A stretch of DNA of 64,000 nucleotides. It comes from Metabacillus litoralis (lineage in GTDB: Bacteria > Bacillota > Bacilli > Bacillales > Bacillaceae). The translations under genes were made by a program, and so were the position numbers. The notes below the pieces were generated by a model, which was given only the letters and a program-made list of their open reading frames with translations, ran no database searches and was not told where the DNA came from. The stretch spans positions 1,489,001 to 1,553,000 of the forward strand of contig NZ_CP033043.1 in assembly GCF_003667825.1 (NCBI RefSeq), given 5' to 3'. Positions within the stretch are counted from its first letter, which is position 1. Every line of letters starts with the position of its first letter. This document shows positions 37,636 to 57,503 of this stretch, piece after piece.

Positions 37636-37678
37636 AAAAGCAACTATCCTTATTCAACAAAAGCGCTTTGATTGAGGA
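37636..37678 (+). repeat. Dispersed hairpin repeat, copy 1
   Basis: TTCAACAAAAGCGCTTTGATTGAGG, core AGCGCTTTGATTG (37662-37674), 27 nt after the stop of the minus-strand GNAT gene. One of twelve copies in the same orientation. Confidence 0.6.
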
Positions 37679-37704
37679 AAATTAATCTTGAACGAAATCA
37701 ACCG

Positions 37705-38151
37705 TTAGTTAATTAATTTCTTTTCAAGAATTATTTTATGTAACCCTTTTTTGTCAGTATAGGTATCAATGACATCAAACCCATTTTTAATATTCAATAC
37801 TAACATATTATGCCATTTATTCATTGTTTTTGTTTGAACAACACTATATCCATTTTCCTTTAAATATTGATGTTGTTTTTCCATTAACTCAGAAGCAATA
37901 CCGTGTTTTCTGTAATAAGTGTCCACCCCACCTAACCAACTATAAAATCTTTTATTGTCAAGTTCATATCCAATCTTATATCCAATAACTTTCGTACCAG
38001 TCATCGCCGTAATAACCAATAATTTAGGCTTATTTTTCATCTTGTTAATCAAATTATCAGTTGTACCAAAAATAGCTATATGTAATTCTATAATTCCTTC
38101 TAAAACATCATCATCTGGTATTGAACTAAAAATGGAGTAATCAAATTTCAA
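37705..38151 (-). CDS. GNAT-family N-acetyltransferase
   Basis: The 148-residue protein matches the GNAT fold: YSWLGGVDTYYRKHGIASELMEKQHQYLKENGY has the RKHGIAS acetyl-CoA loop, and NKWHNMLVLNIKNGFDVIDTY the C-terminal segment. The substrate is unknown. It is the first gene of a series of small minus-strand genes each followed by a hairpin repeat. Confidence 0.82.
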   Translation of the reverse strand: MKFDYSIFSSIPDDDVLEGIIELHIAIFGTTDNLINKMKNKPKLLVITAMTGTKVIGYKIGYELDNKRFYSWLGGVDTYYRKHGIASELMEKQHQYLKENGYSVVQTKTMNKWHNMLVLNIKNGFDVIDTYTDKKGLHKIILEKKLIN

Positions 38152-38436
38152 TTGTTTTCCTCCTTCCTATCTTTAGTTTAAAAATTTTTTTCAGATATAG
38201 CGATAAACCAGAAAATAGGAGGAGGGAAAAAGCTATAATGCCATCACTAGGAAGAAAACTCCTATAATAAAACTAATTAAAAGTTCCAATAAACCCACTT
38301 CCCTACACAATTTTTATAATTAATTACGATCACCACTCCTAAAAGTTTCGTTATTAAATTATCCTGCTTCGTTCATTTAAAGGTAACTCATCATTATTTC
38401 ATTCTAAATGGCCTTCTCCAATCTGGTTCTAACATT
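38152..38436. other. Gene-free stretch before hairpin repeat 2
   Basis: No gene is supported. The part next to 38152 carries the ribosome binding site of the 37705 gene. The ATGGCCTTCTCCAAT module at 38408-38422 belongs to the repeat that follows. Confidence 0.4.
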
Positions 38437-38480
38437 AAAAAGCACTTACCTATATTTCAAGATAAGCGCTTTGATTAAGG
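38437..38480 (+). repeat. Dispersed hairpin repeat, copy 2
   Basis: AAGCACTTACC and AAGCGCTTTGATT, 22 nt after the GNAT stop codon. Preceded by the partner motif ATGGCCTTCTCCAAT (38408-38422), also found near 43340, 45010 and 45585. Works as a terminator on the minus strand. Confidence 0.6.
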
Positions 38481-38501
38481 ATAATAGAAGATAGAAAAAA
38501 G

Positions 38502-38975
38502 TTAATTACATCTCTTTTTATAAAAAATAAGCGTTGCGTTATCGTTTAACTTCTTGGTTATGCCTGTTTTTTTATAGCCAATTTTTTCATACAAATAACA
38601 ATTTCTTTCTTCCTCTAATAATGTGGCTAATTCCCAAGAAGTAGCTTGGGGGAACATATCTTCAATTAGTTGAATTGCCTTCTGTGCAATTCCTTTTCCT
38701 TGATAAGTTGGTAGAATGAACATTGGGCTAATCCAAAACTGTGTCTCCTCATTGGTAAAAATGCAAATAGCGCCTACAAGTTTATTATCAGCTACTATTT
38801 TATAAAAACCACCATCAGGTCTATTAATTCTTGATACTACTTTTTCAATACTTTCATTTGCTGGATTAGATTCATAATCTTTATACTTATCCAATAATGG
38901 CATAAAGGCTTCAACTTGAATATCAAAAATTTCTTTGGCGTTATTGGCAGTTGCTTTTTCTAATATAACTTTCAT
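38502..38975 (-). CDS. GNAT-family N-acetyltransferase
   Basis: The 157-residue GNAT has ISPMFILPTYQGKGIAQKAIQLIEDMFP with the QGKGIAQ acetyl-CoA loop, and RNCYLYEKIGYKKTGITKK as C-terminal motif. The N-terminus (VILEKATANNAKEIFDIQVEAF) matches the usual strand-1/helix-1 of GNATs. The substrate is unknown. Confidence 0.85.
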   Translation of the reverse strand: MKVILEKATANNAKEIFDIQVEAFMPLLDKYKDYESNPANESIEKVVSRINRPDGGFYKIVADNKLVGAICIFTNEETQFWISPMFILPTYQGKGIAQKAIQLIEDMFPQATSWELATLLEEERNCYLYEKIGYKKTGITKKLNDNATLIFYKKRCN

Positions 38976-39055
38976 TACAACACCAGCTCTCTGAATGTTA
39001 ACTATTAAATAATATTCAACACTTACTCTTTACTCACGTATCATTGAACTCATTG

Positions 39056-39553
39056 TCATTCTTTTCCGCTAACCTCTAAAATATTTAAACCCTCTGATAC
39101 CTCTGGTGCTTCAAAAAACCTTGTAACATGAATAAACACCTCTACCGTGTCAAAAGCTGCTCTTTCGGGTTGTTCGTTTCGCCTTTGTTCAATTTGACGT
39201 AAGCATTGCTCGTTATTCAAATTAAGGAAAAGTAGTTGATGACTTGCATTGACCTCTGACGCCATATCCAAAAACCACTTTCGCAGTTTTTGAGTGTTAG
39301 CTGGGAAATCCATCACGACATCTGTACCGACACTTAATATATTTTGGACATGCTTTTTCACCAACGGCTTGAGCTGCGCAGAAAATTTTAGATAGTCCTC
39401 AAATGATGTGATCTGATTGGGATAAAGAGATGAAAGCCAATCATCCTCAGACAACAGTACAGCATGTTTATCTATCGCCAATTGTTTTGATTTAGTTGAT
39501 TTTCCAGCTCCCATTTTTCCACAGAAAAAATATAGCGTCCCCAATCGTGTCAT
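39056..39553 (-). CDS. P-loop kinase-like protein (zeta-toxin/AAA_33 type)
   Basis: The 165-residue protein has a Walker A P-loop (CGKMGAGKST, about residues 11-20), a DDW segment (SEDDWLSSLYP) as in small-molecule kinases, VVMDFPANT (Walker B-like) and a lid helix with RRNEQPERAAFD (CLRQIEQRRNEQP). This fits P-loop kinases that phosphorylate antibiotics or nucleosides, or zeta toxins, but the target is not readable. It has no adjacent antitoxin, so a toxin role is not supported. Confidence 0.8.
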   Translation of the reverse strand: MTRLGTLYFFCGKMGAGKSTKSKQLAIDKHAVLLSEDDWLSSLYPNQITSFEDYLKFSAQLKPLVKKHVQNILSVGTDVVMDFPANTQKLRKWFLDMASEVNASHQLLFLNLNNEQCLRQIEQRRNEQPERAAFDTVEVFIHVTRFFEAPEVSEGLNILEVSGKE

Positions 39554-40347
39554 TTAATTACCCCCTGTGCTTATTTTGGTTTAGGCCTTTTATTTCGTTA
39601 GTTCCCTGTAGACATTCTTCTTTTATTAAAATTTAGACGTTAAGATTTATCTATGAATTTATTTATTCTACCAATTACAGGCATATTCCTTTTTAATTAA
39701 CCTGCACCCGTTAGTTAAACAAGAAATTAGTAATGAACAAAAATACCAGAATGCATACAAAAAAAGCCAACTTAGTATGTTGACTTTTGTTTCCCGCTTA
39801 TTGTGTAGCTTTAAAATAAAATTTGATCATTAACACCCTGAAAATCCACATTTTACGTCAAATTAAATGAACCTGTTTTGAAAAAAAGATTGATCAAAAC
39901 GGGTCCATTCACTATGAAGCACTATACAATTTTCAAAAAAATGTTTGATCATTTTCTGTCTGCAATCCTCAACAATCGCGCTTTTATTGTTGAGGATGGA
40001 TATTGAATTAACGCACTCTTTAGTGCAATAAGAAATATTGCTTGTTACAAGGTTCATTAACTTTGACCTCTTTATCATTTATCCATTTAAGAGATGGGGC
40101 TTTCATTCGTCCAAGTATTTAAACGCTACTCCATTTGGTACAACCATCATGAGCTCTCGATTCTCAAATAAATCATTTTATCTTTGCCCCAATCTTATAA
40201 ACTATAAAAACCTCGAAAGGCAAATAGCCAGTCAAGGTATGATAACAATATCATTTTAATTAGAAGTATCAACTACTTCATCTACTGATTTATCGGAGAG
40301 AATTTCATCATTCTTTTATATAATCTTTCTAATACAATAAGGCTAAT
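39554..40347. other. Long non-coding stretch with repeat debris
   Basis: It contains a minus-strand terminator at about 39763-39788 (GTTGACTTTT-type hairpin with T-run), a module like TAACCTGCACCCGTTAG (39698-39720), the perfect hairpin repeat at 39965-39997, and ACCTCGAAAGGCAAATAGCC (40204-40223), which resembles ACCTAGAAAGGCATTTAGCC at 47120. Short open frames here overlap the repeats and lack ribosome binding sites. This looks like debris of lost cassettes. Confidence 0.5.
39965..39997 (+). repeat. Dispersed hairpin repeat, copy 3 (perfect stem)
   Basis: ATCCTCAACAAT (39965-39976) and ATTGTTGAGGAT (39986-39997) form a perfect 12-bp stem around the conserved loop CGCGCTTTT. Confidence 0.75.
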
Positions 40348-40665
40348 TTAAAGTAACTCCACTCCAACTTGTTTATAAAATTTAACTTTTAGTCTCTCTT
40401 CTTCGCCCACATACATTACCATAGCTTTATCATCTTTTTTTATACTTGTTACATTATTAAAATCACCTGTAAATACTATAGAATCTTTAAATGTAATACT
40501 TAGACTACTCGTTTGCTTATATACATCTAAAGTTAAAATCACCTTGAAATTTTGGTCATCTTTGAAAGTATAAATTAATTCTCCATCATCTATATTGCCT
40601 GTTATACTCACCGGCTCACTTTGAAAAAGTTCTAATAGATCATATTCATCATACTTTATAAACAT
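40348..40665 (-). CDS. Probable immunity protein of the first LXG toxin
   Basis: The 105-residue protein is mainly beta-stranded (SVTGNIDDGELIYTFKDDQNFKVILTLDVYK and later strands) and soluble. I do not recognise the family by motif. It starts 21 bp after the stop codon of the LXG toxin gene on the same strand, where cognate immunity genes of LXG toxins always lie. Its function is therefore inferred as neutralisation of the C-terminal toxin domain. Confidence 0.65.
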   Translation of the reverse strand: MFIKYDEYDLLELFQSEPVSITGNIDDGELIYTFKDDQNFKVILTLDVYKQTSSLSITFKDSIVFTGDFNNVTSIKKDDKAMVMYVGEEERLKVKFYKQVGVELL

Positions 40666-40686
40666 TCGTATTCATCCCTTTATTAA

Positions 40687-42284
40687 TTATTTCGGTATAA
40701 CTGTGATAACATCGCCTGCTTCATTTATAATTACTTTGACATCCTGTGCATCATGAACAAACGTTCCGCTTCTATTACCAGGTATCTTTTTCGTATTCAT
40801 TATAGCGTCTTCAATAACTGAAGGTGGAATATTTCTTGGGTCAACATATTTTTTGATAAAGTCACTAAATTCTTTTGTTTGTGGTTTATAACCTAATTCT
40901 TCAGCTTTTTTAATTGCTCTACTTGTTAAAGTAGCTTTCACTTCAGGAGTATCAGGTGCCATTCTTTCCAAAGCATGCTGAGAATACTTTCTTCCATTTA
41001 TTACTCCTCCGCCTTTTGACATTCTCCAACCTATTTCACCTGCACCTTTAGAAACATCCTTACTAAATTGTTTTTTCACAATGTTGTTTATAGACTTTTT
41101 AATAATATTCTTTGGGCTCACTACAGTTTCTAGTATTGCTAAAGGAGTTCCTTCAAAAAAGGTGTCTAATTCTTCTGCACCACCTACTCTATCTGGTGGT
41201 ATCTTATTTACCTTCTCACGAACATTCCCAAATACTCTGATGATTAGACCATTTCCATATACATAATAGTCACCAGTGTACTCTCCCATTTCATCAATAA
41301 CATTTACAACTTCTTTGGGTTCCTCTTGAATTGCTTCAAATTCTTCTTTTGTGAGTTTTACACCTTCATGGTTTTCTCTATCTTCCACTACAGGTCTAGA
41401 ACCAAACCTAATATAATTTAACATTGCATAATTCAATTGTTCATCTAATCTCAGCTCTAATCCAGTTACTGGATCAAATCCGTATCTGGCACGAAGTAAA
41501 TCATGATAACCAGAGAATTCAGCCAAATCAAACTCATCATGATTCCCATTACCTTCGTATCTTGTATTGGTTTGGATTCCCATTTCCTCAAGCTCTTTAT
41601 TTTTTAGCCGAAGGTAGTTATCCGTATGAAACTTTACTCCTCCTTGAAGCTGATAGATTTCACTCGTACGAAAAGCTTCTGCATCAAACGAAATTGGTTG
41701 TATTCTTACTCCTGTTGAAGTGGCATCTTGTAATGCCTGAAACAAGGCTCGTGCATTGTCCTGTTCATAGATGGAATACATATATTCATTGAGTAATTCT
41801 TGATCGATCCTCTCAACAGCTTCTATTGTTTCATTTGTGCATCTTCCATGTTTGCCTGAAAGTCTGAGGTGGAAAATACTTGTAAGGAAAGTATATCATT
41901 TATTTTTTGGAAGATGCTATTTAGTTCACTTCTATATTGATCGACCATATCGGCCGCTTGTCTTTCACTTTTACTTAATTCATCTTCTAAAAAGCTGCTA
42001 TGTACAACCGTATCTGCACCTAACTTTTCACTCATTAATTTATCCTTTACTCCATCAAAAAACGCAATTTGACAATCTATTAGTAAAAACCAGGCATCTA
42101 TGACTTCCATATGAGCCTTATAAAACCCTTTTATCGCATCGGCACCTTGCCCGATAAATGAGTCTAGTTGGGCAATCGCTTGAAACGTTTTTTGTAAGGT
42201 TTCTAGCTGTATTCGTAGTTTTGCGTAATCATTTGATCTTTGATCCATCGTATCGACTAGAGCCTGTGAATCAAGTACTCTCAA
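40687..42284 (-). pseudogene. Frameshifted LXG polymorphic toxin (DUF4258-like C-terminal domain)
   Basis: The gene starts with TTG at 42284 and encodes an LXG secretion domain (VDTMDQRSNDYAKLRIQLETLQ, helical, about 150 residues) matching the intact second copy. A 10-bp deletion near 41831 (the tract TTTCTCTATT is missing relative to 48735-48750) brings a TAG at 41823-41825, and the rest continues in another frame (40687-41781) as linker plus a C-terminal domain of about 120 residues (NGRKYSQHALERM...VHDAQDVKVIINEAGDVITVIPK), with the look of a BECR-fold RNase (DUF4258-like). The immunity gene follows. As it stands, secretion and toxin parts are uncoupled. Confidence 0.82.
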
Positions 42285-42649
42285 ATTCTTCTACCTCAAA
42301 TCCTCAACCGTTCATTCTCATGGCTATTGAATCATTGTGCTTTTTCTAACATTTTTCACCCAAACAAGCACGTTTTCAAGATACAATTCAGATAGCTATT
42401 TGTTTACATACTTTTGCATTATAAATGAACGATTTAGGAAAAATAAGGTAAAAATTAACTAAAATGCAAAAGTAACCCTATTATATTCCTGAATAAAAAT
42501 ACTCAATAATCACAAAAATTTCACTATAAGATGCATATGTTATATTCAAGAACAGCGCTTTTATTGTTGCGCATTAATATATATATTTATCTCTTAATTG
42601 CTTAGCGTTATGAGAGGGCTTAACTCATTGTTATTCCCTCCCTAAAACG
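42285..42649. repeat. Upstream flank shared by both LXG genes, ending at hairpin repeat 4
   Basis: From the start codon to the hairpin repeat at 42543-42572 this stretch matches 49202-49490 closely, including ACAATTCAGATAGCTATTTG, a conserved non-coding block and the AAAAATACTCAATAATCACA segment. It must hold the LXG promoter. No gene is seen. The small chaperone genes (Lap type) found before many LXG genes are absent. Confidence 0.75.
42543..42572 (+). repeat. Dispersed hairpin repeat, copy 4
   Basis: TTCAAGAACAGCGCTTTTAT then TGTTG, 78 nt after the stop codon of the minus-strand membrane protein gene; imperfect stem TTCAA.../...TTG. It marks the end of the LXG duplication. Confidence 0.65.
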
Positions 42650-43108
42650 TTATTTAGGATTTAATGTAATATATTCTCCTGTATATGGATCAAATTGAAA
42701 ATGGATTATTACCTCACCTTTAATCCCTTTTATAGAATAATAAAGTTTATCATTATTATCACTTATAGTTTTAGAATGATTTTCTATTATTTCCACTTCT
42801 TCTTTTTCCTTAATAGTACCTTGTGATTCTGAATAGGTAAATTCAGGTTTAGTTGTAATATAAATTATAGGGACACATATCAACAAGATAATAGAAATAT
42901 ATGTTGTAATTTTACTCATAAATGACTTAGAAAGATCTAAGTCAACTATTGTGAAAAACATCCCAATAATTACTGTACTTAATATTGGTATTAAGGTATT
43001 AAACATTGTTATATAAACATATTTTTGTGAGTTCAAATTTAAGAAAAGTAATTCAAGAACTCCAATTAACACTACTAAAAAAATAATAATCAGCCTCTTT
43101 GCTCTCAC
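42650..43108 (-). CDS. Membrane protein with three helices and a C-terminal soluble domain
   Basis: The 152-residue protein has three hydrophobic segments (about 6-25, 33-55, 67-87) and then 65 mostly charged residues with FQFDPYTGEYITLNPK at the end. I recognise no family. It stands upstream of the first LXG toxin but is separated from it by the repeat, so it is not part of the toxin operon. Confidence 0.6.
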   Translation of the reverse strand: MRAKRLIIIFLVVLIGVLELLFLNLNSQKYVYITMFNTLIPILSTVIIGMFFTIVDLDLSKSFMSKITTYISIILLICVPIIYITTKPEFTYSESQGTIKEKEEVEIIENHSKTISDNNDKLYYSIKGIKGEVIIHFQFDPYTGEYITLNPK

Positions 43109-43439
43109 TCGATCACTTCCACCAATAAAATTCTTTTAAATAACTTACATACAAAATGTCTATTCCTTATTATTTTAGAGGTTTCAGAAATTTTAATATA
43201 TATCAGTTTTAATGGAATAAGAACCATTACTTTCCTTTATGAATCTTATTTGTTGATAAGTAACCTGCTACATATAGCAAAAGAAGAGATAACCTCTATT
43301 TAAACCAGTTATTCTTAGATGTAAGAACTCAGTCCCTAACAAACTGGCCTTAACATGAAAAAGCACTTACCTTTATTTTCAAGATAAGCGCTTTGTAGGA
43401 GATCATTTGTTGTTTGAACACTAATTAGTCACCTAACCC
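43109..43439. other. Gene-free stretch with hairpin repeat 5
   Basis: There is no gene. The partner motif CTGGCCTTAACATGAAAAAG (43344-43363) runs into hairpin repeat 5. Confidence 0.4.
43357..43405 (+). repeat. Dispersed hairpin repeat, copy 5
   Basis: AAAAAGCACTTACC pairs with GATAAGCGCTTT; on the minus strand it is a hairpin followed by TTTTTC, so it works as a terminator for the small gene ending at 43440. Confidence 0.65.
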
Positions 43440-43538
43440 TTAACTTCTCTTTTTAAAGATTTCCCTAGTAAAACCTATAATACAAATTAATATCAGAAAA
43501 GGTAAAACGATAGGAAATAAATAACCAACTAAGTTCAC
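43440..43538 (-). CDS. Small membrane peptide, 32 residues
   Basis: A GTG start (43538-43536) follows GGAGGAAAAGTT with good spacing and encodes MNLVGYLFPIVLPFLILICI then IGFTREIFKKRS: one strongly hydrophobic helix and a basic tail. An open frame to 43622 exists, but it runs into the hairpin repeat and lacks a ribosome binding site. The form is that of small membrane toxins or regulators; no family is recognised. A terminator-type hairpin repeat follows. Confidence 0.45.
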   Translation of the reverse strand: MNLVGYLFPIVLPFLILICIIGFTREIFKKRS

Positions 43539-43614
43539 AACTTTTCCTCCACTCATATTAGTTTGTATATGATATGAAGTTGTCCTATGTTTAATGACAC
43601 CGTTAATTGGTTTC

Positions 43615-43643
43615 CTCGACAACAGCGCTTTTATTGTTGAAGT
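43615..43643 (+). repeat. Dispersed hairpin repeat, copy 6
   Basis: CTCGACAACAGCGCTTTTAT then TGTTGAAG, 38 nt after the stop codon of the GNAT gene; stem CAACA/TGTTG around the GCGCTTTTAT loop. Confidence 0.65.
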
Positions 43644-43680
43644 TCATAGATAATTTTACTTTGTAAGAAACATAGCTAAT

Positions 43681-44136
43681 CTATCTTCGCAAAATCATTT
43701 GATCAGTTTCAGTAAACCCTAGTGTTTGGTATAGTTTTCTTGCATTATCACTTGCTAATAATCGGATTGTATGAATTTCTCTTTTAGAAAACCACTTTAA
43801 CACTTCATCTGTTAACTTACTTGCATAACCTTGATTTCTAAATTCAGGATCTACATATACATCTCCAATAAATCCGTACTGGTCTTCTTTATAAAAGCAA
43901 TATGGAATATCATCCTTAATAAAAGCTCCAGCACAAGCAATTATTTCATTATTTTGTTCAATAACAAAGTGAATTGCTTTATCTAATATATATAAATCTT
44001 TATATGTCTTTTCAACTACCTGAACAAAATTAGCTTTAAGAAGATCTTCCATACCCACTTCTTTAAACATTTTCTGTTTTAGGAGTGTTATTGAAGGAAT
44101 ATCTATAAAAGTTGCAGCTCTTATCACTTTAATCAC
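43681..44136 (-). CDS. GNAT-family N-acetyltransferase
   Basis: The 151-residue protein carries the GNAT motifs: YGFIGDVYVDPEFRNQGYASKLTDEVLKWF with the RNQGYAS acetyl-CoA loop and ARKLYQTLGFTETDQMILR at the C-terminus. The substrate is unknown. It is followed by hairpin repeat copy 6. Confidence 0.85.
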   Translation of the reverse strand: MIKVIRAATFIDIPSITLLKQKMFKEVGMEDLLKANFVQVVEKTYKDLYILDKAIHFVIEQNNEIIACAGAFIKDDIPYCFYKEDQYGFIGDVYVDPEFRNQGYASKLTDEVLKWFSKREIHTIRLLASDNARKLYQTLGFTETDQMILRR

Positions 44137-44296
44137 CTACTTAAATAGAATCTGTATCAGTTCATTTCTTCATTTCCTCTTAGAATTATTCTATCTATGA
44201 TACAGAATATCCTGTGCTTTCATCATTTAATAGGCACACCTCAACATGAAATGCATCTCTACTTTTGAAGATCACTAATGATTGAATTTTACTTCT

Positions 44297-44330
44297 TTCA
44301 TAAACGCGCTTCTTTTTGTGGAAGATCAGC
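44297..44330 (+). repeat. Dispersed hairpin repeat, copy 7 (degenerate)
   Basis: TTTCATAAACGCGCTTCTTT then TTGTGGAAGATC, 61 nt after the stop codon of the 44391 gene; diverged core. Confidence 0.5.
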
Positions 44331-44390
44331 ATTTTTGTTGCTGTAGATGATTGATGTATTAACGCCCCTTTTAGTTTAACAACTATTATT

Positions 44391-44897: not shown

Positions 44898-45092
44898 TTC
44901 ACTTCACCTACTTTTCAGTCCAATTAATGTTATCACTTCTTCCACTTAACTCTCCGTTCAGTTTAAGTGTAATTCACATACACTTATCACACTTTCATTT
45001 TAATTGACCTTCTCCAATATGGCTCTTACCATAAGAACGACACGAATCCTACACATTTGCATCCTATAGTTCAATAAGAACTAATCTACACT

Positions 45093-45651: not shown

Positions 45652-45661
45652 AAATATCTTT

Positions 45662-46551
45662 TTAAAAGTATTGATTATAGAACTGATGCCTTAGCTTTCC
45701 ACTTAACTGAGCATAAACCCTGGTTGTTTCACTTTTTTCATGTCCAAGTAGACTTTGTATAACATCAAGTGGAGCACCATTATTCAACATATGTGTAGCA
45801 TAGCTATGCCTAAGTTGATGGGGGTGAATCGTTTTATTAATTCCTGCACGATTGGATATTCTTTTTATAATATATCTCATTAAATCGATACTCATTCGAT
45901 GCTGTGGCTTCCTTTCAGTAACAAATAACGCTTGATCAGTATCTACTCTTTCATCTAAGTACCTTTTTAGCCAAATATCACACTTTACATTAAAATACAC
46001 TTCTCTTTCTTTATCACCTTTACCACGAACCACAACTGACTGGCTATGAAAATCTACATCATCACGATTAAGTTTTATAACCTCACCTATACGACATCCT
46101 GTAGAATACATAAACTCAAATAATGCCTTTTCCATTGAAGTAAGACAAGATTCCCGTAAGAGTTCAATTTCTTGTTCAGAAAGGAACTTAGGTATTCGTT
46201 TCCCTTGTTTCGGCTCTTTAATTTTAGTTGTGGATTCTTCACTATGATCCCTTCGCCATGAGCCCAATTAAATATGGATTTGAGAAATCTTATTCTATGT
46301 CCTAAGCTAGAAGGCTTTAAATGACTTCCTTTTTCAACCAGATATTCTTTCAATATATCCGTGGTAAAGTTAGTTATGTCCATATCACCAAAACATCTCA
46401 TTAGCACATATAGTTGATATTTGTAATTTTGCATTGTAAGGACTGAATAACCTTCAATCCTTTTATCAGATTCATATTTTCTCCATGCTTCAGATAATAG
46501 CAATCTATCCACACTCCTACCATTTATTGAGTTTTTTAGAATTATGGACAT
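45662..46551 (-). pseudogene. Tyrosine recombinase, frameshifted
   Basis: Two overlapping frames together make one XerC/D-like recombinase of about 295 residues. The first (46551 down) has the SAM-like N-terminal domain (YKYQLYVLMRCFGDMDITNFT...RIRFLKSIFNWAHGEGI.VKNP). The second holds the catalytic domain: Arg in STGCRIGEVIKLNRDD, Lys in RGKGDKEREV, HxxR as HPHQLRHSYATHM, His in LLGHEKSETT and Tyr in TRVYAQLS. The join lies near 46220-46235, where NP in one frame should continue as TKIKEPKQGKRIP in the other. As read it is non-functional; a single-base error would restore it. A 22-bp sequence beside its start recurs at 55637. Confidence 0.85.
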
Positions 46552-46553
46552 TG

Positions 46554-47053: not shown

Positions 47054-47101
47054 ATAAGCACCTTTCCTTGTTCCAGAAAGGCGCTTCTATTGTTGAAGAT
47101 C
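47054..47101 (+). repeat. Dispersed hairpin repeat, copy 8
   Basis: AAGCACCTTTCC pairs with GAAAGGCGCTT, followed by CTATTGTTGAAGAT; 58 nt after the immunity stop codon, works as a minus-strand terminator. Confidence 0.7.
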
Positions 47102-47158: not shown

Positions 47159-47593
47159 TTAGTTCAAAAAAGTCGGTAACTGTTTTAACCATTCTTCAAA
47201 GTTATTAGCTTCTTTATCTACATTAGTTTCTTCATGTGAATAATAGTAAACTCCTGAGTTTGGACACTCATTGGATAGAAGGCAGAAGTAATCACCATTA
47301 CCTATACCATAAAATGGGATTAATTCTTCCTTCCATCCCCCCTGTTTCATTTCATAGTCATAGGTAAATTCAATAGTGTCATTTCCATTTGTATTTCCAT
47401 TGGAAACATTTAAGATATCTCCTGGAAACGAATATTCAGACATTAATTCAATAAAAAATTTAAATTCAGATGGAAATAAACATCCAAACTTTTTTTCGAT
47501 ATTTTCCCAATCACTTGCCAAAGGAATATCTAAATTTCCTAATTCTTTATCTAATAAACCATCTAATAATTTTGCAATCTCATCTCTTGTCAC
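47159..47593 (-). CDS. SMI1/KNR4 (SUKH) immunity protein, YobK-like
   Basis: The 144-residue protein shows the SUKH pattern: WENIEKKFGCLFPSEFKFFIELMSEYSFPGDIL near the N-terminus, IPFYGIGNGDYFCLL in the middle, and ...NNFEEWLKQLP at the end. SUKH-1 proteins neutralise nuclease toxins. The gene starts 15 bp after the stop codon of an LXG toxin with an HNH-type C-terminus, the same pairing as YobL/YobK in Bacillus subtilis. Confidence 0.88.
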   Translation of the reverse strand: MTRDEIAKLLDGLLDKELGNLDIPLASDWENIEKKFGCLFPSEFKFFIELMSEYSFPGDILNVSNGNTNGNDTIEFTYDYEMKQGGWKEELIPFYGIGNGDYFCLLSNECPNSGVYYYSHEETNVDKEANNFEEWLKQLPTFLN

Positions 47594-47608: not shown

Positions 47609-49201
47609 TTAAATCCCTTCTCCTGGTAGTATATATCCTTTTCCTCTTTCTTTATAGTGTTCTCTAATCTCCTTTGCTCTTTGAGAAGGAGTTAACTGGG
47701 AAGGTTTTTCATGACGTGTATGATTTCCTCCACCTCTATGAGTTCTTTGCTCTAATTCATCTAATATCCCACCATTTTTAACAGGGACTTGTTGCCTATG
47801 GTGTGCTTCTATATTTTTATCACCATGGGTCATTTTAGTTGTTGGTCCTTTTCCTTGACGCATTCTTATGACTTCTTCAATTGTTTTTGGCTCATATCTT
47901 ACAGGTGGAATAGACATAGGTGGGTCTGGATTTGGATAATTGGATGGGCTTAGCTTGGCATCACCCTTACCAACTTGCTTTTTCACAATGTTATTTATAG
48001 ACTTTTTGATGAAAGTCTTTGGTCTCATTACATATTCTAGTATTGCTAAAGGTGTTCCTTCAAAAAAGGTATCTAATTCTTTTCCTCCACCTACTCTATC
48101 TGGTGGTATCTTATCTACCTTCTCACGAACATTCCCAAATACTCTGATAGTTAGACCATTTCCATATACATAATAGTCACCACTATATTCTTTCATTTCA
48201 TCAATAACATTTACAATTTCTACAGGATCCTGTTGAATTGCTTCAAATTCTTCTTTTGTGAGTTTTACAGCTTCATGGTTTTCTCTATCTTCCACGACAG
48301 GTCTAGAACCAAACCTAATATACGTTAACAATGCATAATTCAATCGTTCATCTAATCTCAGCTCTAATCCAGTTACTGGATCAAATCCGTATCTGGCACG
48401 AAGTATATCATAATAACCAGAAAACTCAGCCAAATTAAACTCATCATGATTCCCATTAGCTTCGTATCTTGTATTGGTTTGGATTCCCATTTCCTCAAGC
48501 TCTTTATTTTTCAGCCGAAGGTAGGTATCCGTATGAAACTTTGCTCCTCCTTGAAGCTGATAGATTTCACTCGCACGAAAGGCTTTTGCATCAAAGGAAA
48601 TGGGTTGTATTCTTACTCCTGTAGTAGTGGCATCTCGTAATGCCTGAAACAAGGCTTGTGCATTGTCCTGTTCATAGATGGAATACATATATTCATTGAG
48701 TAACTCTTGATCGACCCTCTCAACAACTTCTATTGTTTTTTCTCTATTCATTTGTGCATCTTCCAAGTTTACCTGAAAGTCTGAGGTGGAAAATACTTGT
48801 AAGGAAAGTATATCATTTATTTTTTGGAAGATGCTATTTAGTTCACTTCTATATTGATCGGCCATATCGGCCGCTTGTCTTTCACTTTTACTTAATTCAT
48901 CTTCTAAAAAGCTGCTATGTACAACCGTATCTGCACCTAACTTTTCACTGACTAATTTATGCTTTACTCCTTCAAAAAACGCAATTTGACAATCTATTAA
49001 TAAAAACAAGGCATCTATGACTTCCATATGAGCCTTATAAAACCCTTTTATCGCATCGGCACCTTGCCCGACAAATGAGTCTAGTTGGACAATCACTTGA
49101 AACGTTTTTTGTAAGGTTTCTAGCTGTGATCGTAGTTTTGCGTAATCATTTGATCGTTGATCCATCGTATCGACTAGCGACTGTGAATCAAGTACTCTCA
49201 A
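47609..49201 (-). CDS. LXG polymorphic toxin with HNH/EndoVII-type nuclease domain, YobL-like
   Basis: The 530-residue protein starts with TTG (GAGGTGAGG upstream). Residues 1-about 200 are the helical LXG domain (MRVLDSQSLVDTMDQRSNDY), which addresses the protein to the type VII (Ess/Yuk) secretion system. A linker (about 200-410) is nearly identical to that of the first LXG gene. The C-terminal 110 residues are unique: KMTHGDKNIEAHHRQQVPVKNGGILDELEQRTHRGGGNHTRHEKP has the His pattern of a HNH/EndoVII nuclease. Its immunity gene follows directly. The target would be nucleic acid in a competing cell. Confidence 0.9.
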   Translation of the reverse strand: MRVLDSQSLVDTMDQRSNDYAKLRSQLETLQKTFQVIVQLDSFVGQGADAIKGFYKAHMEVIDALFLLIDCQIAFFEGVKHKLVSEKLGADTVVHSSFLEDELSKSERQAADMADQYRSELNSIFQKINDILSLQVFSTSDFQVNLEDAQMNREKTIEVVERVDQELLNEYMYSIYEQDNAQALFQALRDATTTGVRIQPISFDAKAFRASEIYQLQGGAKFHTDTYLRLKNKELEEMGIQTNTRYEANGNHDEFNLAEFSGYYDILRARYGFDPVTGLELRLDERLNYALLTYIRFGSRPVVEDRENHEAVKLTKEEFEAIQQDPVEIVNVIDEMKEYSGDYYVYGNGLTIRVFGNVREKVDKIPPDRVGGGKELDTFFEGTPLAILEYVMRPKTFIKKSINNIVKKQVGKGDAKLSPSNYPNPDPPMSIPPVRYEPKTIEEVIRMRQGKGPTTKMTHGDKNIEAHHRQQVPVKNGGILDELEQRTHRGGGNHTRHEKPSQLTPSQRAKEIREHYKERGKGYILPGEGI

Positions 49202-49533
49202 AACCTCACCTCATCTCCTCAACCGTTCATTCTCAATGCAATTGAATCATTGTACTTATTTCTAATACTCTTCACCCAAACCAGCACATCTTCAAGATAC
49301 AATTCAGATAGCTATTTGTTTACATACTTATGCATTATAAATGAACGATTTAGGAAAAATAAGGTAAAAATTAACTAAATTGTAAAAGTAACCCTACTAT
49401 ATTCCTGAATAAAAATACTCAATAATCACAATAATTTTACTATAAGACGCATATGTTATATTCAAGAACAGCGCTTCTATTCGGAAGATCGCACTTGAAC
49501 TAAAGCTCCCGTTCGTGAAGTATCACTATTCCT
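49202..49533. repeat. Upstream flank shared by both LXG genes, ending at hairpin repeat 9
   Basis: It matches 42285-42572 in order and sequence. The likeness ends at the hairpin repeat (49459-49490), beyond which the two loci differ. Confidence 0.75.
49459..49490 (+). repeat. Dispersed hairpin repeat, copy 9
   Basis: TTCAAGAACAGCGCTTCTATT then CGGAAGATC, 44 nt after the stop codon of the next minus-strand membrane gene. Confidence 0.6.
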
Positions 49534-49860: not shown

Positions 49861-50028
49861 ATACCCCACTCCTTTTTTTAGATTTTACCATATAAATCCA
49901 TAATTCTTATTAAAGATTACTGCTTCGTTAACGCAATAAGAAAATGCGTCTAGCTATTTAGTTTAATTTAGGTCATGATTATGCCAAAATTTCGTTTCAA
50001 CTTAGTTTTAATGAAATATTTAATGTTC

Positions 50029-50817: not shown

Positions 50818-50831
50818 TTCATTTCCCTCCA

Positions 50832-50909
50832 AGTGTTATAATGTGTTTGCTAAATTAATGGTAGTTTATACCTGTTTATATATAACACTCAACGCTCGAG
50901 TATAACACT
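50832..50909. promoter_or_regulatory. Intergenic MocR boxes
   Basis: TATAACACT occurs at 50881-50889 and 50901-50909 as direct repeats 20 bp apart, and inverted at 50832-50840 (AGTGTTATA). Direct repeats two helical turns apart are the usual binding arrangement of MocR regulators. Confidence 0.6.
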
Positions 50910-50924
50910 TAAAGGAGAAAAATC

Positions 50925-52400: not shown

Positions 52401-52772
52401 TAACAAGTCTAATTTGATTGTTACTGTTCTAAAAAATAAAACTCCAGTTTTTAGTTTTATTAAAGGTCAAGAAAACAATGGAAGTCTTTTATAACGAATT
52501 TTTCTATGTAATGTTACACATTATAAAGGATAAAACAAGAAGGATAGGGAGAGCAGTGAACATATCTGCTTTACCTATCCTTTTCTGTGCTACAAATGAC
52601 CTCATTCACCAAAACAATCGACCTTGGGTGTTGCGCGCTTTTATTGTTGAAGATCGACATAAATAAAATTAACTAGTTAACTGTCCTTTTGCCTGAACAC
52701 CCTACAATAATATGAATAAAAAACACCCCCTTATCTATTTCATGAAAATAAACAAGGGGAAGAATACATTAC
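52401..52772. other. Gene-free stretch with hairpin repeat 10 and the secDF terminator
   Basis: No gene is supported; an open frame over the repeat has no ribosome binding site. It contains repeat 10 (52629-52655) and a minus-strand terminator at 52719-52759 (CCCCTT/AAGGGG stem with AT extension and a T-run). Confidence 0.6.
52629..52655 (+). repeat. Dispersed hairpin repeat, copy 10
   Basis: GTTGCGCGCTTTTATTGTTG then AAGATC; core GCGCTTTTATTGTTGAAG fully conserved, left arm lost. Confidence 0.65.
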
Positions 52773-55028
52773 TTAAACAAGTGGTTTGTCAGTATCATAT
52801 TTCTCTTTTTCCTTATAGAATACAATGTTACCTTTTTTTAGTTTCATTGATTTAATATCAAACCAAAGCTGCGACGCAATAAATAATGAAGAGTACGTTC
52901 CAGCTATTAATCCAATTAATAAAGCCAATGAAAAACCACTAATGGATTCACTTCCAAAAATATATAGGGCAAAAGCAGTCATTAATACGGTTAAAACAGT
53001 ATTAATCGAACGAGATAGTGTTTGTTGTAAACTTATATTTACAATTGATTGCAGCTCTTGTACAGAATTGATTAATTTAACCTCCCTTAAATGTTCTTTA
53101 ATTCTGTCAAAAGTCACAATTGTATCATTGATCGAGTACCCAATAATTGTGAGAACTGCTGCTATAAAATATAAATTTACTTCTACTTGTAAAAAACTAA
53201 ACACAAATATCGTTAGTAAAGCATCGTGAAATAAAGCGACAACGGCTGTTAATGCAAAACTTAGCTCATATCGAATAGTCAAATATATAACTATCCCAAA
53301 TGATGCTACTATTATTGCCTTTATAGCATTTTTCACTAATTCGTTTCCAACTATTGGTGACACTACATTAACATTAGGTTCTGAACCATATTCACTTTTG
53401 AAAGTATCTTTAATCTTTTCTACCTCACTCTGATTTATATCACCCTTAATTACGGCAACTCCTATATTGTCTTTCTTTCCTGAAATTGTAATATCTGGAT
53501 CGTAATTTAAATTCCTAAATTCCGTTTTTAATCTATTTGTATCCATTGTATTATCTGAAATTACTTCGACTCTCGTGCCACTGGTAAAGTCTATACCTAA
53601 GTTAAGACCATTTAAAATAAATGAAAATATACCTATCGAAAAAACAAGCAGCGAAATACTGTAGAAAAACTTTCGGTATTTTACAAAGTCCAGTTTTCTT
53701 TTAGAATTTGTTACATACTGACTTGCTCTAACATTTAATATTTCGAGTCGTTTTAATGCCACTCCAAGTATTAAAACTTTCCCCTTTAAAATATTGCTTT
53801 TTAAGAGAAGCCCCAATAAGATTCTAGAACCCCATACGGCTGTTAAAAAGCTTATTAGTATACTAATAATTAACATTGTCGCAAAACCTTTTACACCACT
53901 TGTTCCAAAAGTAAATAGTACTAATCCAACCAATATAGTAGTTAAATTTGCATCTAGGATTGTAATAAAGGCTCTTCGAGTTCCTGCACGGAATGCATTT
54001 TCAAGGCTTTTCCCTACTGCTAATTCATCTTTCATTCTTTCGAACGTAATAATATTAGCATCTACCGCCATACCAACACCTAAAATTAAAGCAGCTATTC
54101 CAGGTAATGTTAATACACCATTCATCCAATCAAAAATCAAAAGAATCATGTAAATATAGGCACATAAAGTAAATGTTGAAATTAAACCAGAAATCCCATA
54201 ATAACCTACCATGAATAGAAATACTAAACTTATTCCTATTATTCCAGCTAATATCGTTTTGCTTAATGCATCATCCCCAAAATGTGCACCAACTGACTGT
54301 GAATAAATCTCTGATAATTTTACTGGTAAACTTCCCGCATTTAACATTGATGCTAATTCATTAGCTTCTTTTAATGTAAAATCACCTTCGATTATTACAT
54401 TGTCATCTGATAGTGTTTCCTTAACTTGAGGTGCCGAGATTATACGCTGTTTTTGTTTGGGCTTTTGTTGTTCTTCCTTAAAATTTAATCCATCTTCATA
54501 ATCCAACCAAATGGCAAGTATATTGTTCGGGTAAACATTATTGGACAAATCACTAGTTATATCCTTAAATTTATTTGGATCCTTTAATTTAATACTCACA
54601 ATTGGTTTATTAAATTGATCAAAAGAGAGCTTAGCTGATTCAATTTCGCTTCCATCTAACATTAGTTGATCATTTATATCTCTAAAAGTTAAATGAGCTT
54701 CTGTTGACAACATCCTTCTGGCAGATGCCTGATCTTTAACACCTGCTAGTTGCACACGGATTCGGTCTGAACCCTCAGCTTGTATATTTGGTTCAGATAC
54801 CCCTAAAACATTTACACGATTATTTAAAGCACTTATAGTGTTCTTTAAAACATCTTCATCAATATCATCATATTTATTAATAGGTTCAACCTTATATAAA
54901 ACCTCAAAGCCACCCTGTAAATCCAATCCAAGTTTTAAACGGTTTAATACTTGGTCAGATGTTGTTCCTATGGCTAATCCTAACGCTATAATTATTAAAA
55001 ATAACCATATTACTTTTGTGAGTTTCAA
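52773..55028 (-). CDS. secDF: SecDF protein-export membrane protein (accessory copy)
   Basis: The 751-residue protein fuses SecD (about 1-415) and SecF (about 445-751). It has 12 membrane segments, the SecD N-terminal KLGLDLQGGFEVLYKV, the large extracytoplasmic P1 region, RND-type proton-relay segments (GVGMAVDANIITFERMKDEL and IIGYSINDTIVTFDRIKEHL) and typical SecF features. SecDF uses proton flow to pull exported proteins off the SecYEG channel. The usual chromosomal neighbours (recJ, spoVB) are absent, and the gene sits between repeats in an accessory region, so it is probably a second copy. It is preceded by a 117-residue membrane protein and followed by a terminator. Confidence 0.85.
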   Translation of the reverse strand: MKLTKVIWLFLIIIALGLAIGTTSDQVLNRLKLGLDLQGGFEVLYKVEPINKYDDIDEDVLKNTISALNNRVNVLGVSEPNIQAEGSDRIRVQLAGVKDQASARRMLSTEAHLTFRDINDQLMLDGSEIESAKLSFDQFNKPIVSIKLKDPNKFKDITSDLSNNVYPNNILAIWLDYEDGLNFKEEQQKPKQKQRIISAPQVKETLSDDNVIIEGDFTLKEANELASMLNAGSLPVKLSEIYSQSVGAHFGDDALSKTILAGIIGISLVFLFMVGYYGISGLISTFTLCAYIYMILLIFDWMNGVLTLPGIAALILGVGMAVDANIITFERMKDELAVGKSLENAFRAGTRRAFITILDANLTTILVGLVLFTFGTSGVKGFATMLIISILISFLTAVWGSRILLGLLLKSNILKGKVLILGVALKRLEILNVRASQYVTNSKRKLDFVKYRKFFYSISLLVFSIGIFSFILNGLNLGIDFTSGTRVEVISDNTMDTNRLKTEFRNLNYDPDITISGKKDNIGVAVIKGDINQSEVEKIKDTFKSEYGSEPNVNVVSPIVGNELVKNAIKAIIVASFGIVIYLTIRYELSFALTAVVALFHDALLTIFVFSFLQVEVNLYFIAAVLTIIGYSINDTIVTFDRIKEHLREVKLINSVQELQSIVNISLQQTLSRSINTVLTVLMTAFALYIFGSESISGFSLALLIGLIAGTYSSLFIASQLWFDIKSMKLKKGNIVFYKEKEKYDTDKPLV

Positions 55029-55049
55029 TTAGTTTCCTCCTAATCCAAA

Positions 55050-55403
55050 TTAGAATCTATGATTGATTAAATTTGGATTATAGAAAAACCTAGATTTGTA
55101 TTTGATAGGGGTTAGGAGCTCCTTTAACTTTTCATAGTAGATATGTAATTGAAAAAAACGATTTATTTTTATTACATAACAATAAATCACAAGTGTTATT
55201 AGGATATTAAAATAAATTTGGGGAAAATTCAGCTTATCATTTGGAGAATTAATTGTGAATGTATTAATTTGATCAAATATTGTATTTGTTGAAAACTCTG
55301 TTTTAATTTGATCGTTGTATTCTTTAGGATTATGAAGAGCAGACCACTGGTTTGTTGATAAAAACATTACTAAAATAAGGAGAATCTTCACTATATTGTA
55401 CAT
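55050..55403 (-). CDS. Small membrane protein upstream of secDF
   Basis: The 117-residue protein has an N-terminal hydrophobic segment (about 5-20) and a second near residues 66-84 (IYFNILITLVIYCYVIKI), so two membrane helices or a signal peptide and one helix, then a basic tail (KLKELLTPIKYKSRFFYN). No family is recognised; it is not YajC. It ends 21 bp before the secDF start, so the two are likely to be one transcript and functionally linked. Confidence 0.6.
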   Translation of the reverse strand: MYNIVKILLILVMFLSTNQWSALHNPKEYNDQIKTEFSTNTIFDQINTFTINSPNDKLNFPQIYFNILITLVIYCYVIKINRFFQLHIYYEKLKELLTPIKYKSRFFYNPNLINHRF

Positions 55404-55636
55404 AAGATTATCCTCCCATTAAATTAGTATCTATCAATTATAACTCAACTCAAATTTTTTAGTAAGTAATTACAAGGATAATTATTCCAAACTAACTAAA
55501 ATTTGTATCGAATCAATTTAAAATCCGAGTGTATCCTAAGTTTCTTAATGCATATCTCACTCTATAATTTCAGCTACACTCCTAAGAAAATTAGCTGGGT
55601 TTTAATATTATATCTAATTATTTTATTTATACATTC

Positions 55637-55658
55637 ATTACTAGTTTTATTCAACAAA
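55637..55658 (+). repeat. 22-bp direct repeat, right copy
   Basis: Identical to 46554-46575 beside the recombinase start; here it directly abuts hairpin repeat 11. The two copies bracket 9.1 kb that includes the second LXG locus, PhzF/MocR and secDF. Confidence 0.5.
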
Positions 55659-55668
55659 TGCGAAAAAA

Positions 55669-55716
55669 CAAAACACCTTTCGTTGTTCAGAAAGGCGCTT
55701 TTATTGTGGAAGATCA
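55669..55716 (+). repeat. Dispersed hairpin repeat, copy 11
   Basis: AAAACACCTTTCG pairs with GAAAGGCGCTTTT, followed by ATTGTGGAAGATC. Works as a minus-strand terminator. Confidence 0.65.
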
Positions 55717-56079
55717 ATCTAAAATATTCAATCCCTATTTATGTTACAGCACACTCTGTGGAATTTCATTTCAACTTTTCTAAGATGGTTGAACGATTAT
55801 TCTAGTTGTAAATCATGACGATTAAACAAAGAAAGAACATCCGAAAGCTCCATTTTCTCTATTTAAAGGATTCTTTTTTTATTGAGATGCTCTTTGTTGC
55901 GTTTGGAATTGTTATTATTAATAAAAGAAAGATAAGAGACGGACTTGTATTAAATGCCCCTCTTCTGTAGTTAATGATTGATTTTGTATATATAAATAAA
56001 AGGGTCGTAGCAGCAACCCTCTTTTCTCTACTTCTTTAGCTCGATTACTAAAAATTGCATCTAATAATTAACTATGTTT

Positions 56080-56778
56080 CTAGTTATTAAGTTGCTTATC
56101 ATTAACGTACATTAGATAATTTTCTGCTTCAGTAAACTTTTCTCTTAAATTATTTGGAATCTTATCTGTATCTTCTGGATTTTTCATTCCACTTTGCGCC
56201 ATTATTTGTTCGTATGTTATCAGAGTATTTATGTAATGATCATATTCTGAAGCAGTCAAAACCTCTACACTTAATTCTTGCTCGTTTAACTTATCAAAGT
56301 AAGGTTGAATTTGATATAGCACGTCCCTTAAACTGTACATTTCTGAAATTGGGATTTGAGAGTAATCGATATTACCATACCCATTTCCATATTTAAGTTT
56401 AGCAGTAGTAATCTTTGTTAATAAATCTTTAAAATGAAGGTATTCTTCTTTTTCTAACTCTCCTTGTGCCTGTGATATCTTTGCATCCAGAAGCAAATAT
56501 CCTTCCATAGTAGCACTTGATATATGCTTTTTAATATTTTCAAACGAACCATAAAATTGATCAGCAAGAAATGATTGGTAAGCCCAAGCACTAGTTGGAA
56601 TTATGAGTAAAATTGCAATAGCACAAGTAACTAAATTTCCCCTTAGAATATCTGTTACTTTGCTTACCAGTGATTTTTTATATAATTTTTCCTTATAAGG
56701 GATACTAAATATAATATTGTCATCAAAATCGTACTCTTGTGCTATTTTATTCAGGGTATTCCTAATTTTTTGTTCCAT
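56080..56778 (-). CDS. Anti-sigma-factor-like membrane protein with DUF3600 domain
   Basis: The product of about 232 residues has a short cytoplasmic N-terminus (MEQKIRNTLNKIAQEYDF), one membrane helix (about 50-68) and an extracytoplasmic helical domain (SFENIKKHISSATMEGYLLLDAKISQAQGELEKEEYLHFKDLLTKI), typical of DUF3600, annotated as a negative effector of ECF sigma factors. It overlaps the sigma gene by 17 nt. ATG 56778 follows AGGCGGTGG; the GTG three codons earlier is less likely. Expected role: hold the sigma factor until an envelope signal arrives. Confidence 0.82.
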   Translation of the reverse strand: MEQKIRNTLNKIAQEYDFDDNIIFSIPYKEKLYKKSLVSKVTDILRGNLVTCAIAILLIIPTSAWAYQSFLADQFYGSFENIKKHISSATMEGYLLLDAKISQAQGELEKEEYLHFKDLLTKITTAKLKYGNGYGNIDYSQIPISEMYSLRDVLYQIQPYFDKLNEQELSVEVLTASEYDHYINTLITYEQIMAQSGMKNPEDTDKIPNNLREKFTEAENYLMYVNDKQLNN

Positions 56779-57340
56779 AACTTCCACCGCCTATCCCCAT
56801 ATATTCTTCATAACTCAATAAGTTCCTTAATTTCTGTCTAGCTTTATAGAGTCTAGATTTTACCGTCCCTTCACTAATATCCAGCATTTTACTTATCTCT
56901 GTAATAGATAAATCTTGAAAATAATAAAGAATGATAACAATTCTTAATTTTACGCTTAATTGATTTATACATTGATATATTTCCTTAGTCTCTTCATCAA
57001 TAATATTCCTAATTTCTGGAGTTTCATTGTTTGTTACCCCATTTTTCTTTGAAAAGTAAGCTATATATTTCTTCTTTCTCAACATTTTTATTGAACAATT
57101 GACCACAATTTTGTTAAACCATGTTTTAAATGATGCTTTACTAGGATCATACCGACCAATAGATTTATAAGCTTCAAACAAGGCTTCTTGAACTGCATCT
57201 TGTGCCATCCCATAATCATATAAAAATAAATAAGCTGTCCTTCTTGATTGTAAAATATAAGGTTTAAATAACTCATTAAATGCTATTTCATCTCCTGATT
57301 TTATACGTTTTATTAAAGCTCTCTCATTCAATAAATTCAC
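56762..57340 (-). CDS. ECF-type RNA polymerase sigma factor
   Basis: The 192-residue protein has sigma region 2 (DEIAFNELFKPYI...GMAQDAVQEALFEAYKSIGRYDPSKASFKTWFNKIVVNCSIKMLRKKK, about 15-95) and region 4 (YYFQDLSITEISKMLDISEGTVKSRLYKARQKLRNLL, about 140-175). No region 3 or other extension is present. It is paired with the overlapping DUF3600 anti-sigma gene. A GGAGGTG box precedes the start. Its target promoters cannot be told from this window. Confidence 0.92.
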   Translation of the reverse strand: MNLLNERALIKRIKSGDEIAFNELFKPYILQSRRTAYLFLYDYGMAQDAVQEALFEAYKSIGRYDPSKASFKTWFNKIVVNCSIKMLRKKKYIAYFSKKNGVTNNETPEIRNIIDEETKEIYQCINQLSVKLRIVIILYYFQDLSITEISKMLDISEGTVKSRLYKARQKLRNLLSYEEYMGIGGGSYGTKN

Positions 57341-57455
57341 CTCCTGTTTTTTTATTTCAATACCTTATTACCATTTCATAGCAAATTGGTTCACTTTTTC
57401 GTTAAGCTTTATCATATTTTTTAATTATTTTGTCTATGTTCTGCTTAAACTAAAT

Positions 57456-57503
57456 TAAGCACCTTTCCCTAGTTCCAGAAAGGCGCTTTTATTGTTGAAG
57501 ATT
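57456..57503 (+). repeat. Dispersed hairpin repeat, copy 12
   Basis: AAGCACCTTTCCC pairs with GAAAGGCGCTT; core GCGCTTTTATTGTTGAAG fully conserved; 53 nt after the lipoprotein stop codon. Followed by the ATTGAATTAACGCACCCGTT module also seen near 39999. Confidence 0.7.

Follow-up and report, generated by a model that had tools for sequence, protein, structure and literature searches.

The window analysed here, a 64-kb stretch of DNA (positions 1,489,001-1,553,000 of a 5.23-Mb single-contig Metabacillus genome), carries in its second half a run of mostly small, unrelated minus-strand genes interspersed with copies of a short repeat, here treated as recombination sites, and the remains of a tyrosine recombinase gene (Table 1). 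A preliminary description had placed 12 repeats there in one orientation: all 12 places were touched by a sequence model with one shared orientation, and the 18-nt core was found with up to three mismatches in 7 copies (0.11 expected from shuffles), all on the plus strand as the core was first written. The reported spacing of 20-80 nt behind minus-strand genes is likewise borne out by the table of open reading frames (ORFs), in which 9 of the 12 copies lie about 16-75 nt past a minus-strand stop and those at 39.97, 52.64 and 55.69 kb do not; the copy at 44.3 kb has a profile score of 24.8. The perfect hairpin ascribed to the third copy (39.97 kb) can be read directly off the sequence, and the XerC/D-type recombinase reported mid-array is indeed broken, 45662-46551 (-) being split into two overlapping frames.

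To locate such sites genome-wide, a sequence model was built from 35 sites and the best 150 of 5,990 first-look candidates were scored. All 45 matches at E<0.01 among them fall inside three islands that make up about 3% of the chromosome (1.003-1.011 Mb, plus; 1.526-1.563 Mb, minus; 1.700-1.809 Mb, minus), and the array of the window extends past 57.5 kb, with matches up to genome position 1,563,086, 10 kb beyond the window. Since the training sites necessarily match the model, what counts is that no further match attained E<0.01; the first scored match outside the islands (1,664,338) has E=0.013, and, given that the best 150 candidates were scored, weak sites may exist elsewhere. The core with up to two mismatches occurs 21 times in the genome (24 in the cross-genome count), again always within the three islands. 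The repeat is thus island-bound rather than spread evenly behind ordinary genes, a distribution that would have spoken against the array as first described. The third island also contains two of three identical 1.8-kb copies (genome 1,711,891, 1,780,511 and 1,836,952) that are probably an insertion sequence, and tandem repeats lie downstream of the array at 1,581,720-1,582,557 and 1,603,995-1,604,665. The genome and G016 belong to one genus. A 62-nt form of the repeat matched a single plasmid record, pB218 of Metabacillus sp. B2-18, and nothing in the phage collection; a strict 27-nt pattern gave no match in the named genome collection, where records near this genome may be absent. No Rfam model reached its gathering score in the array; far outside it, a BsrG family RNA (type I toxin-antitoxin) was found at window 9844-10107 (-), with 78.8 bits.

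The architecture of the sites was derived from eight stretches in three Metabacillus genomes, where 173 profile hits, less 8 lower-scoring overlapping ones, gave 165 sites with the consensus TCTTCARCAAW-MR-AAGCGC-NNTTCTTGAANAAG (downstream part in short form: AAGCGC, then NNTTCTTGAA). Two inverted arms, TCTTCARCAAW upstream and NTTTCTTGAANAAG downstream, flank the nearly constant hexamer AAGCGC. The orientation of the stretch is shared by 164 of the 165 sites and by every one of the 134 that score >22, the other 31 (≤22) being left out of the crossover, hairpin and interval counts below. The secondary modules mentioned in the preliminary description recur as well: one is a second site of like build with two inverted arms (core CGGGTGC), 34 nt upstream of some Metabacillus sites, and the other (AAGGCCAG) lies 40-46 nt downstream of some. 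Because these satellite sites add to the main site, the fullest repeats exceed 100 nt. In addition, a stem of at least 11 pairs starts in the core at 53 of the 134 sites (2 with the downstream sequence shuffled once per site) and is followed by a T-rich tail in 39 of the 53. Terminator-like matches in the array number 14 (7.4 in shuffles), while promoter-like matches are not enriched (73 versus 96). The hairpin downstream of the core is clearly selected; by eye, sites that lack it still have a conserved arm.

To determine whether the units between sites move, alignments within and between the arrays of the three Metabacillus genomes were examined, and an alignment end was assigned to a site when within 25 nt of it. 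Alignments shorter than 250 nt were dropped because the composite repeat itself inflates the count, and site positions were shifted 200 times as a control. In the resulting 192 homologous stretches (384 ends), 50 ends lie at a site in both copies (mean 0.06 and maximum 2 in the 200 shifts) and 87 in at least one copy (8 with shifted sites). No breakpoint peak was seen at the type II and III satellite sites. Sites bound both ends in both copies of four alignments, of which three are between genomes and one is between two contigs of G003. For example, the unit at 2,710,848-2,712,191 of the G016 chromosome is 98.8% identical to 81,963-83,305 of contig C2 of G003, and window 43,627-44,327 is 86% identical to G016 2,674,092-2,674,788. 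Within the genome, homology between the 42.55-kb and 49.47-kb regions stops at the site of the latter (49458..49489), and the site at 57.48 kb has its upstream gene and arm in common with genome position 1,804,860, with divergence directly after GCGC. The preliminary description would have been contradicted by an absence of gene-plus-repeat movements; units were instead seen again in other genomes and on other replicons, bounded at identical bases of the repeat. Such site-ended recurrence is the trace expected of site-specific exchange of single cassettes.

The point of exchange was narrowed by inspecting 110 nt on each side of the sites. Homology over upstream-gene bodies mostly stops at the 3′ edge of the core and never at +24 to +83, and that over downstream-gene bodies mostly begins in the upstream arm and never upstream of −24. 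In 21 pairs (33 sites) with just the upstream unit in common, variable bases agree through +1 and are unlinked from +9; in 35 pairs (41 sites) with just the downstream unit in common, they agree from +9, with no agreement at 0/+1. Not all pairs of either set are independent. Positions 3-8 are nearly constant across the compared pairs. This places the exchange between +1 and +9, in or at the edge of AAGCGC. The preliminary description had put the core in the loop of a folded hairpin: the hairpin of the third copy is perfect as described, but the data, which put the exchange in or at the edge of a hexamer between two inverted arms, do not call for such a fold.

Arrays analogous to those of Metabacillus, with different arms and cores, are found in Gottfriedia. 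The palindrome TTSAACTAA-N(7-9)-TTAGTTSAA was found in 81 of the 397 Bacillales genomes examined, compared with about ten for its reversed pattern, and ten genomes of one family, with Gottfriedia as its main genus, carry 10 to 62 copies each. The Metabacillus core pattern, at two mismatches, occurs in 152 of the 397 genomes, with 1-5 matches each outside the genome of the window (24); given these low counts and the reversed pattern matching in many genomes, these are read as mostly background. By eye, the arrays of Gottfriedia and of CP053689.1 consist of small same-direction genes, a site, a terminator-like hairpin and a second site. The latter record is filed as Arthrobacter citreus NEB 577, yet a spore protein gene and the match to Gottfriedia arrays mark it as a plasmid from Bacillales, and its array includes a group II intron reverse transcriptase. 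The Gottfriedia breakpoint count used the length and distance limits given above. Pairs from a single genome were excluded if more than 98% identical, as were ends no further than 60 nt from the border of a stretch (7 of 240), sites with over three mismatches and the second (b) sites. Of the 233 ends counted, 22 lie at a site in both copies versus 0.125 (maximum 2). A smaller test on few stretches had given a weak signal (3 of 194 ends in both copies versus 0.03). In the larger comparison, sites bound both ends in both copies of five alignments, one of them between species and four within a genome.

The candidate enzyme family is that of the broken recombinase in the window, whose catalytic piece retains all six presumed catalytic residues of tyrosine recombinases; a degraded copy of its 3′ end sits in the third island. 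Intact homologues, a search for which had been proposed at the outset, were found in genomes G013 (78% identity) and G008 (69%), and Gottfriedia proteins are 65-68% identical to that of G013. In a tree, these and the window piece form one clade (100/100 support) that excludes XerC, XerD, XerS and the other recombinases included, although several outgroups are long-branched and the deeper joins are unsure. A query with a Gottfriedia member at E≤1e-60, counting fragments and broken genes, gave matches in 83 of the 397 genomes, from 43 of the 136 genera sampled. Of 31 clade genes, 10 have a site with up to three mismatches no more than 260-300 nt away (5 of 11 and 5 of 21 in two samples with one gene in common), and such sites also lie near 3 of 5 further fragments; 110.5 kb of non-array DNA contained none, and shuffled DNA 0.0027 per kb. 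Clade and palindromic sites occur together in 31 of the 397 genomes versus 16.9 expected (odds ratio 3.1; Fisher P value=3.7e-5, uncorrected for phylogeny), and the clade is present in 9 of the 11 genomes with at least five palindromes. At two Gottfriedia loci a clade gene heads the array and is transcribed away from the cassettes (G280:C17, intact; G459:C31, broken); the remaining clade genes are located within arrays or at a distance from them, and, by eye, nearby sites with a readable direction run opposite to the recombinase. That an Xer-like recombinase of this family is the enzyme is therefore supported, but indirectly.

Two other candidates were considered. The Tn554-like tnpA/B/C recombinases beside three G016 arrays were rejected, as the three compared are nearly identical transposon copies; four equal-scoring recombinases of this type occur in G016 (C1:2717466, C1:4025485, C2:16681 and C2:244006). 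The tandem recombinases of G006 were set aside, being about 30% identical to the clade and tied to one locus. Four-gene tandem runs of this kind were seen at G006:C21:15176-18276 and G280:C14:355226-359324.

Taken together, the region in the window is very probably one of three mobile gene cassette arrays in which a tyrosine recombinase exchanges units within the AAGCGC hexamer. The array itself, its fixed orientation, its confinement to islands, the movement between replicons and species and the breakpoints at the hexamer region were all observed. A cassette would comprise one to a few genes, headed by a 5′ module that often includes a terminator and closed by a 3′ half-site, neighbouring cassettes being joined through the upstream arm, AAGCGC and the inverted downstream arm. 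The recombinase would pair two sites, probably as duplex rather than as folded single strands, and swap strands within the hexamer, which must then be nearly alike in every cassette. Single units would thereby be inserted, deleted or swapped with their orientation kept, presumably through circular cassettes as intermediates. An incoming cassette would often carry a hairpin with its 5′ strand starting in the hexamer; the new junction would thus rebuild a terminator and could shield the cassette from its neighbour.

Several observations weigh against this reading. In the Metabacillus comparison, 297 of the 384 ends lie at a site in neither copy, so the arrays also decay and rearrange by other routes, and core position 7 varies without link to either side. 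No site was found near 21 of the 31 clade genes and no palindromic site in 52 of the 83 clade genomes, perhaps because the arms differ in other genera or because the recombinase there plays a different role. Of the 69 site-bearing genomes that belong neither to Gottfriedia nor to its family, 22 have the clade. Within Metabacillus the association with the clade is weak. Two of the three site-richest genomes, G003 (26 core matches) and G016 (19), yielded no clade member at E≤1e-30, the genome of the window (24) has broken copies only, and G013 and G008, which have intact members, show no AAGCGC core at up to two mismatches. Moreover, in other genera the clade goes with the arms TTSAACTAA/TTAGTTSAA, which are not those of the window, and the window recombinase runs in the cassette direction, unlike those of Gottfriedia. 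The enzyme for the sites of the window is thus one that we infer, and the AAGCGC enzyme may be a diverged or lost member of the clade, or a host Xer protein.

The last of these, namely that a host XerC/XerD or XerS-like protein moves the cassettes with the clade recombinase as a passenger, is unlikely, though it would account for the large G003 and G016 arrays that lack the clade: presumed XerD and XerC were matched, by score and length, in all 21 genomes of the genus, and a 6-bp central region suits Xer sites. It leaves unexplained why clade genes adjoin sites far above chance and head two Gottfriedia arrays. The arms are also unlike the B. subtilis dif site, no search aimed at dif having been made, and dif modules are two-oriented, whereas the array sites are one-oriented in all 134 cases. 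A terminator function, offered in the preliminary description as the simplest alternative, holds in part, as many sites overlap the T-tailed hairpins counted above and terminator-like matches are in excess. That the repeats are only conserved intrinsic terminators, carried behind acquired genes by ordinary homologous recombination, is nevertheless highly improbable. Arms outside the stem are conserved, by eye, even where the hairpin is missing. Plain terminators would be expected as hairpins with a T-run behind genes across the whole genome, but the E<0.01 matches among the 150 candidates scored fall in the three islands alone. As the whole story it conflicts with the hexamer-region breakpoints and the site-ended alignments, and the exchange of units is left unexplained.

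A true integron remnant, that is, a cluster of attC sites lacking an integron integrase (CALIN) whose sites fold as single strands and are recombined by an IntI encoded elsewhere, would share the layout, the fixed orientation, the small unrelated cargo and the composite imperfect palindrome. The Gottfriedia arms AACTAAC/GTTAGTT match the attC R boxes at 6 of 7 positions each (by eye), and a survey (PMC9024848) reports a few CALIN from Firmicutes. It is quite improbable all the same: none of the five clade members passes the IntI model (IntI itself not having been searched for in these genomes), and on either side of the crossover the hexamer hardly varies, which an exchange between duplexes needs. 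It is barely conceivable that the repeated flanks were made by class C group II introns, or by insertion sequences, with terminators or attC-like hairpins as their targets. The group II intron reverse transcriptase in the CP053689.1 array and the Tn554-like elements near the G016 arrays speak for it, but neither transposase nor reverse transcriptase is seen in the Pfam results for 20 window proteins or for 85 cassette ORFs (25 of their 56 families listed), and the units move with their ends at the hexamer.

The cargo agrees with a unit that is often, but not always, a single gene. In 75 intervals of up to 2.6 kb from six stretches, 106 sense and 21 antisense ORFs were found, with one sense ORF of at least 60 aa in 27 intervals, two in 20, three or more in 12 and none in 16. 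Of 106 cassette ORFs, 85, from G003 and G016, were used for the Pfam scan, and 6 of these matched the GNAT model PF00583. In the window, 9 of the 20 scanned proteins have no Pfam match; besides the cargo in Table 1, an AAA kinase-like protein and a PhzF-like protein with a GntR/aminotransferase regulator were identified. Two LXG toxin units (40687-42284 and 47609-49201), 6.9 kb apart and each preceded by a recombination site, are 88-97% identical over long stretches, the first being split into two ORFs and the second a single 530-aa ORF.

Table 1. Recombination sites, recombinase pieces and cassette cargo in the window (window coordinates; E values from the sequence model)
Feature	Position	Strand	Basis
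Recombination site, last of array	37649..37683	-	Profile; E≤1.4e-5
GNAT acetyltransferase, cargo	37705..38151	-	Pfam
Recombination site with terminator hairpin	38452..38486	-	Profile; hairpin scan; E=0.008
GNAT acetyltransferase, cargo	38502..38975	-	Pfam
Recombination site, two arms perfectly complementary	39964..39998	-	Core match; sequence reading; profile; E≤1.4e-5
Recombination site starting first LXG toxin unit	42541..42575	-	Profile; E≤1.4e-5
Marginal half site with terminator hairpin	43375..43395	-	Hairpin scan; E=0.075
Recombination site, 3′ bound of unit shared with G016	43611..43645	-	Profile; alignments; E≤1.4e-5
GNAT acetyltransferase, cargo	43681..44136	-	Pfam; unit (43627-44327) recurs in G016
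Two overlapping partial sites, 5′ bound of unit shared with G016	44292..44353	-	Profile; weak in model (E=0.8, one copy)
Tyrosine recombinase, catalytic part, 201 aa	45662..46267	-	Homology; clade tree; alignment
Tyrosine recombinase, N-terminal part in other frame, 154 aa	46087..46551	-	Sequence comparison
Recombination site with terminator hairpin and T-rich tail	47067..47101	-	Profile; hairpin scan; E≤1.4e-5
SUKH (SMI1/KNR4) immunity-type protein, cargo	47159..47593	-	Pfam
LXG polymorphic toxin, cargo	47609..49201	-	Pfam
Recombination site, upstream arm partly lost, starting second LXG toxin unit	49458..49489	-	E=7e-4
Recombination site, degenerate downstream arm	52621..52655	-	Profile; E=9e-4
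Recombination site with terminator hairpin	55681..55715	-	Profile; hairpin scan; E≤1.4e-5
Extracytoplasmic function (ECF) sigma factor with DUF3600 partner, cargo	56080..57340	-	Pfam
Recombination site, core hexamer 57483-57488	57469..57503	-	Core match; profile; E≤1.4e-5

Beyond this locus, we lean, tentatively, towards a gene-capture system of the Bacillales' own, independent of integrons, in which a dedicated Xer/XerA-like clade shuffles self-insulated cassettes via duplex two-arm sites. The arms and the core hexamer differ by lineage (AAGCGC, GCGCCA, GCATGC/GCATCA and GGGTGC), so cassettes would form compatibility groups by lineage. If true, this would be a second cassette system of separate origin, present in a large group of spore-forming bacteria, and arrays that capture single genes would have arisen more than once. 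Such a system would account for islands of acetyltransferases, immunity proteins and membrane peptides that change quickly, and would supply a new site-specific recombinase whose core is short and defined. No description of these arrays was found among the literature matches listed, a search that left bioRxiv uncovered and subscription papers sparse, so their absence from print is not established.

Among known systems, the gene modules of Acinetobacter plasmids, which lie between short two-arm pdif/dif sites (PMC13141974), are similar in layout; dif modules are described in C and D forms and ascribed to host XerC/XerD. The Bacillales arrays differ in occupying chromosomes as well as plasmids and in having all sites in one orientation rather than two. 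XerA (NF040815) is the best NCBIfam model for four of the five clade members (202-221 bits; the cut-off of 220 is passed by one of the five), and PDB 4a8e is the best solved relative of the two members queried. Known XerA resolves chromosome dimers, whereas the clade paralogues accompany cassette sites. Recombinase trios (RIT elements) resemble the tandem recombinases at G006:C21, about 4 kb from two array sites, but these are about 30% identical to the clade and no other locus ties them to arrays.

The closest likeness is to integrons. Small unrelated genes in one direction, each unit followed by a site, are exchanged between replicons, and at two Gottfriedia loci a divergent tyrosine recombinase stands at the array head; the integron-like cassette array of the preliminary description thus stands in its layout, orientation and site-ended unit movement. 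The recombinase is not IntI. The model TIGR02249 gives the five clade members 93-101 bits, all below the cut-off of 265, and scores host XerC and XerD at 148. The clade proteins are Xer/XerA-like, 279-280 aa long, and show no block inserted into the catalytic domain when aligned to XerC/XerD; IntI is reported to carry a specific insertion there (PMC8138268). The cassette sites consist of two inverted arms round a nearly constant hexamer, with terminators at the 5′ end of cassettes; the R-box ends RYYYAAC/GTTRRRY are absent from the Metabacillus consensus, and the 6/7 match of the Gottfriedia arms was read by eye, without an attC model. Integrons are extremely rare in Firmicutes, a 2022 survey (PMC9024848) reporting a single complete integron in addition to the few CALIN. 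The arrays work like an integron yet fall outside the IntI family, and there is a fair chance that they represent an independent system.

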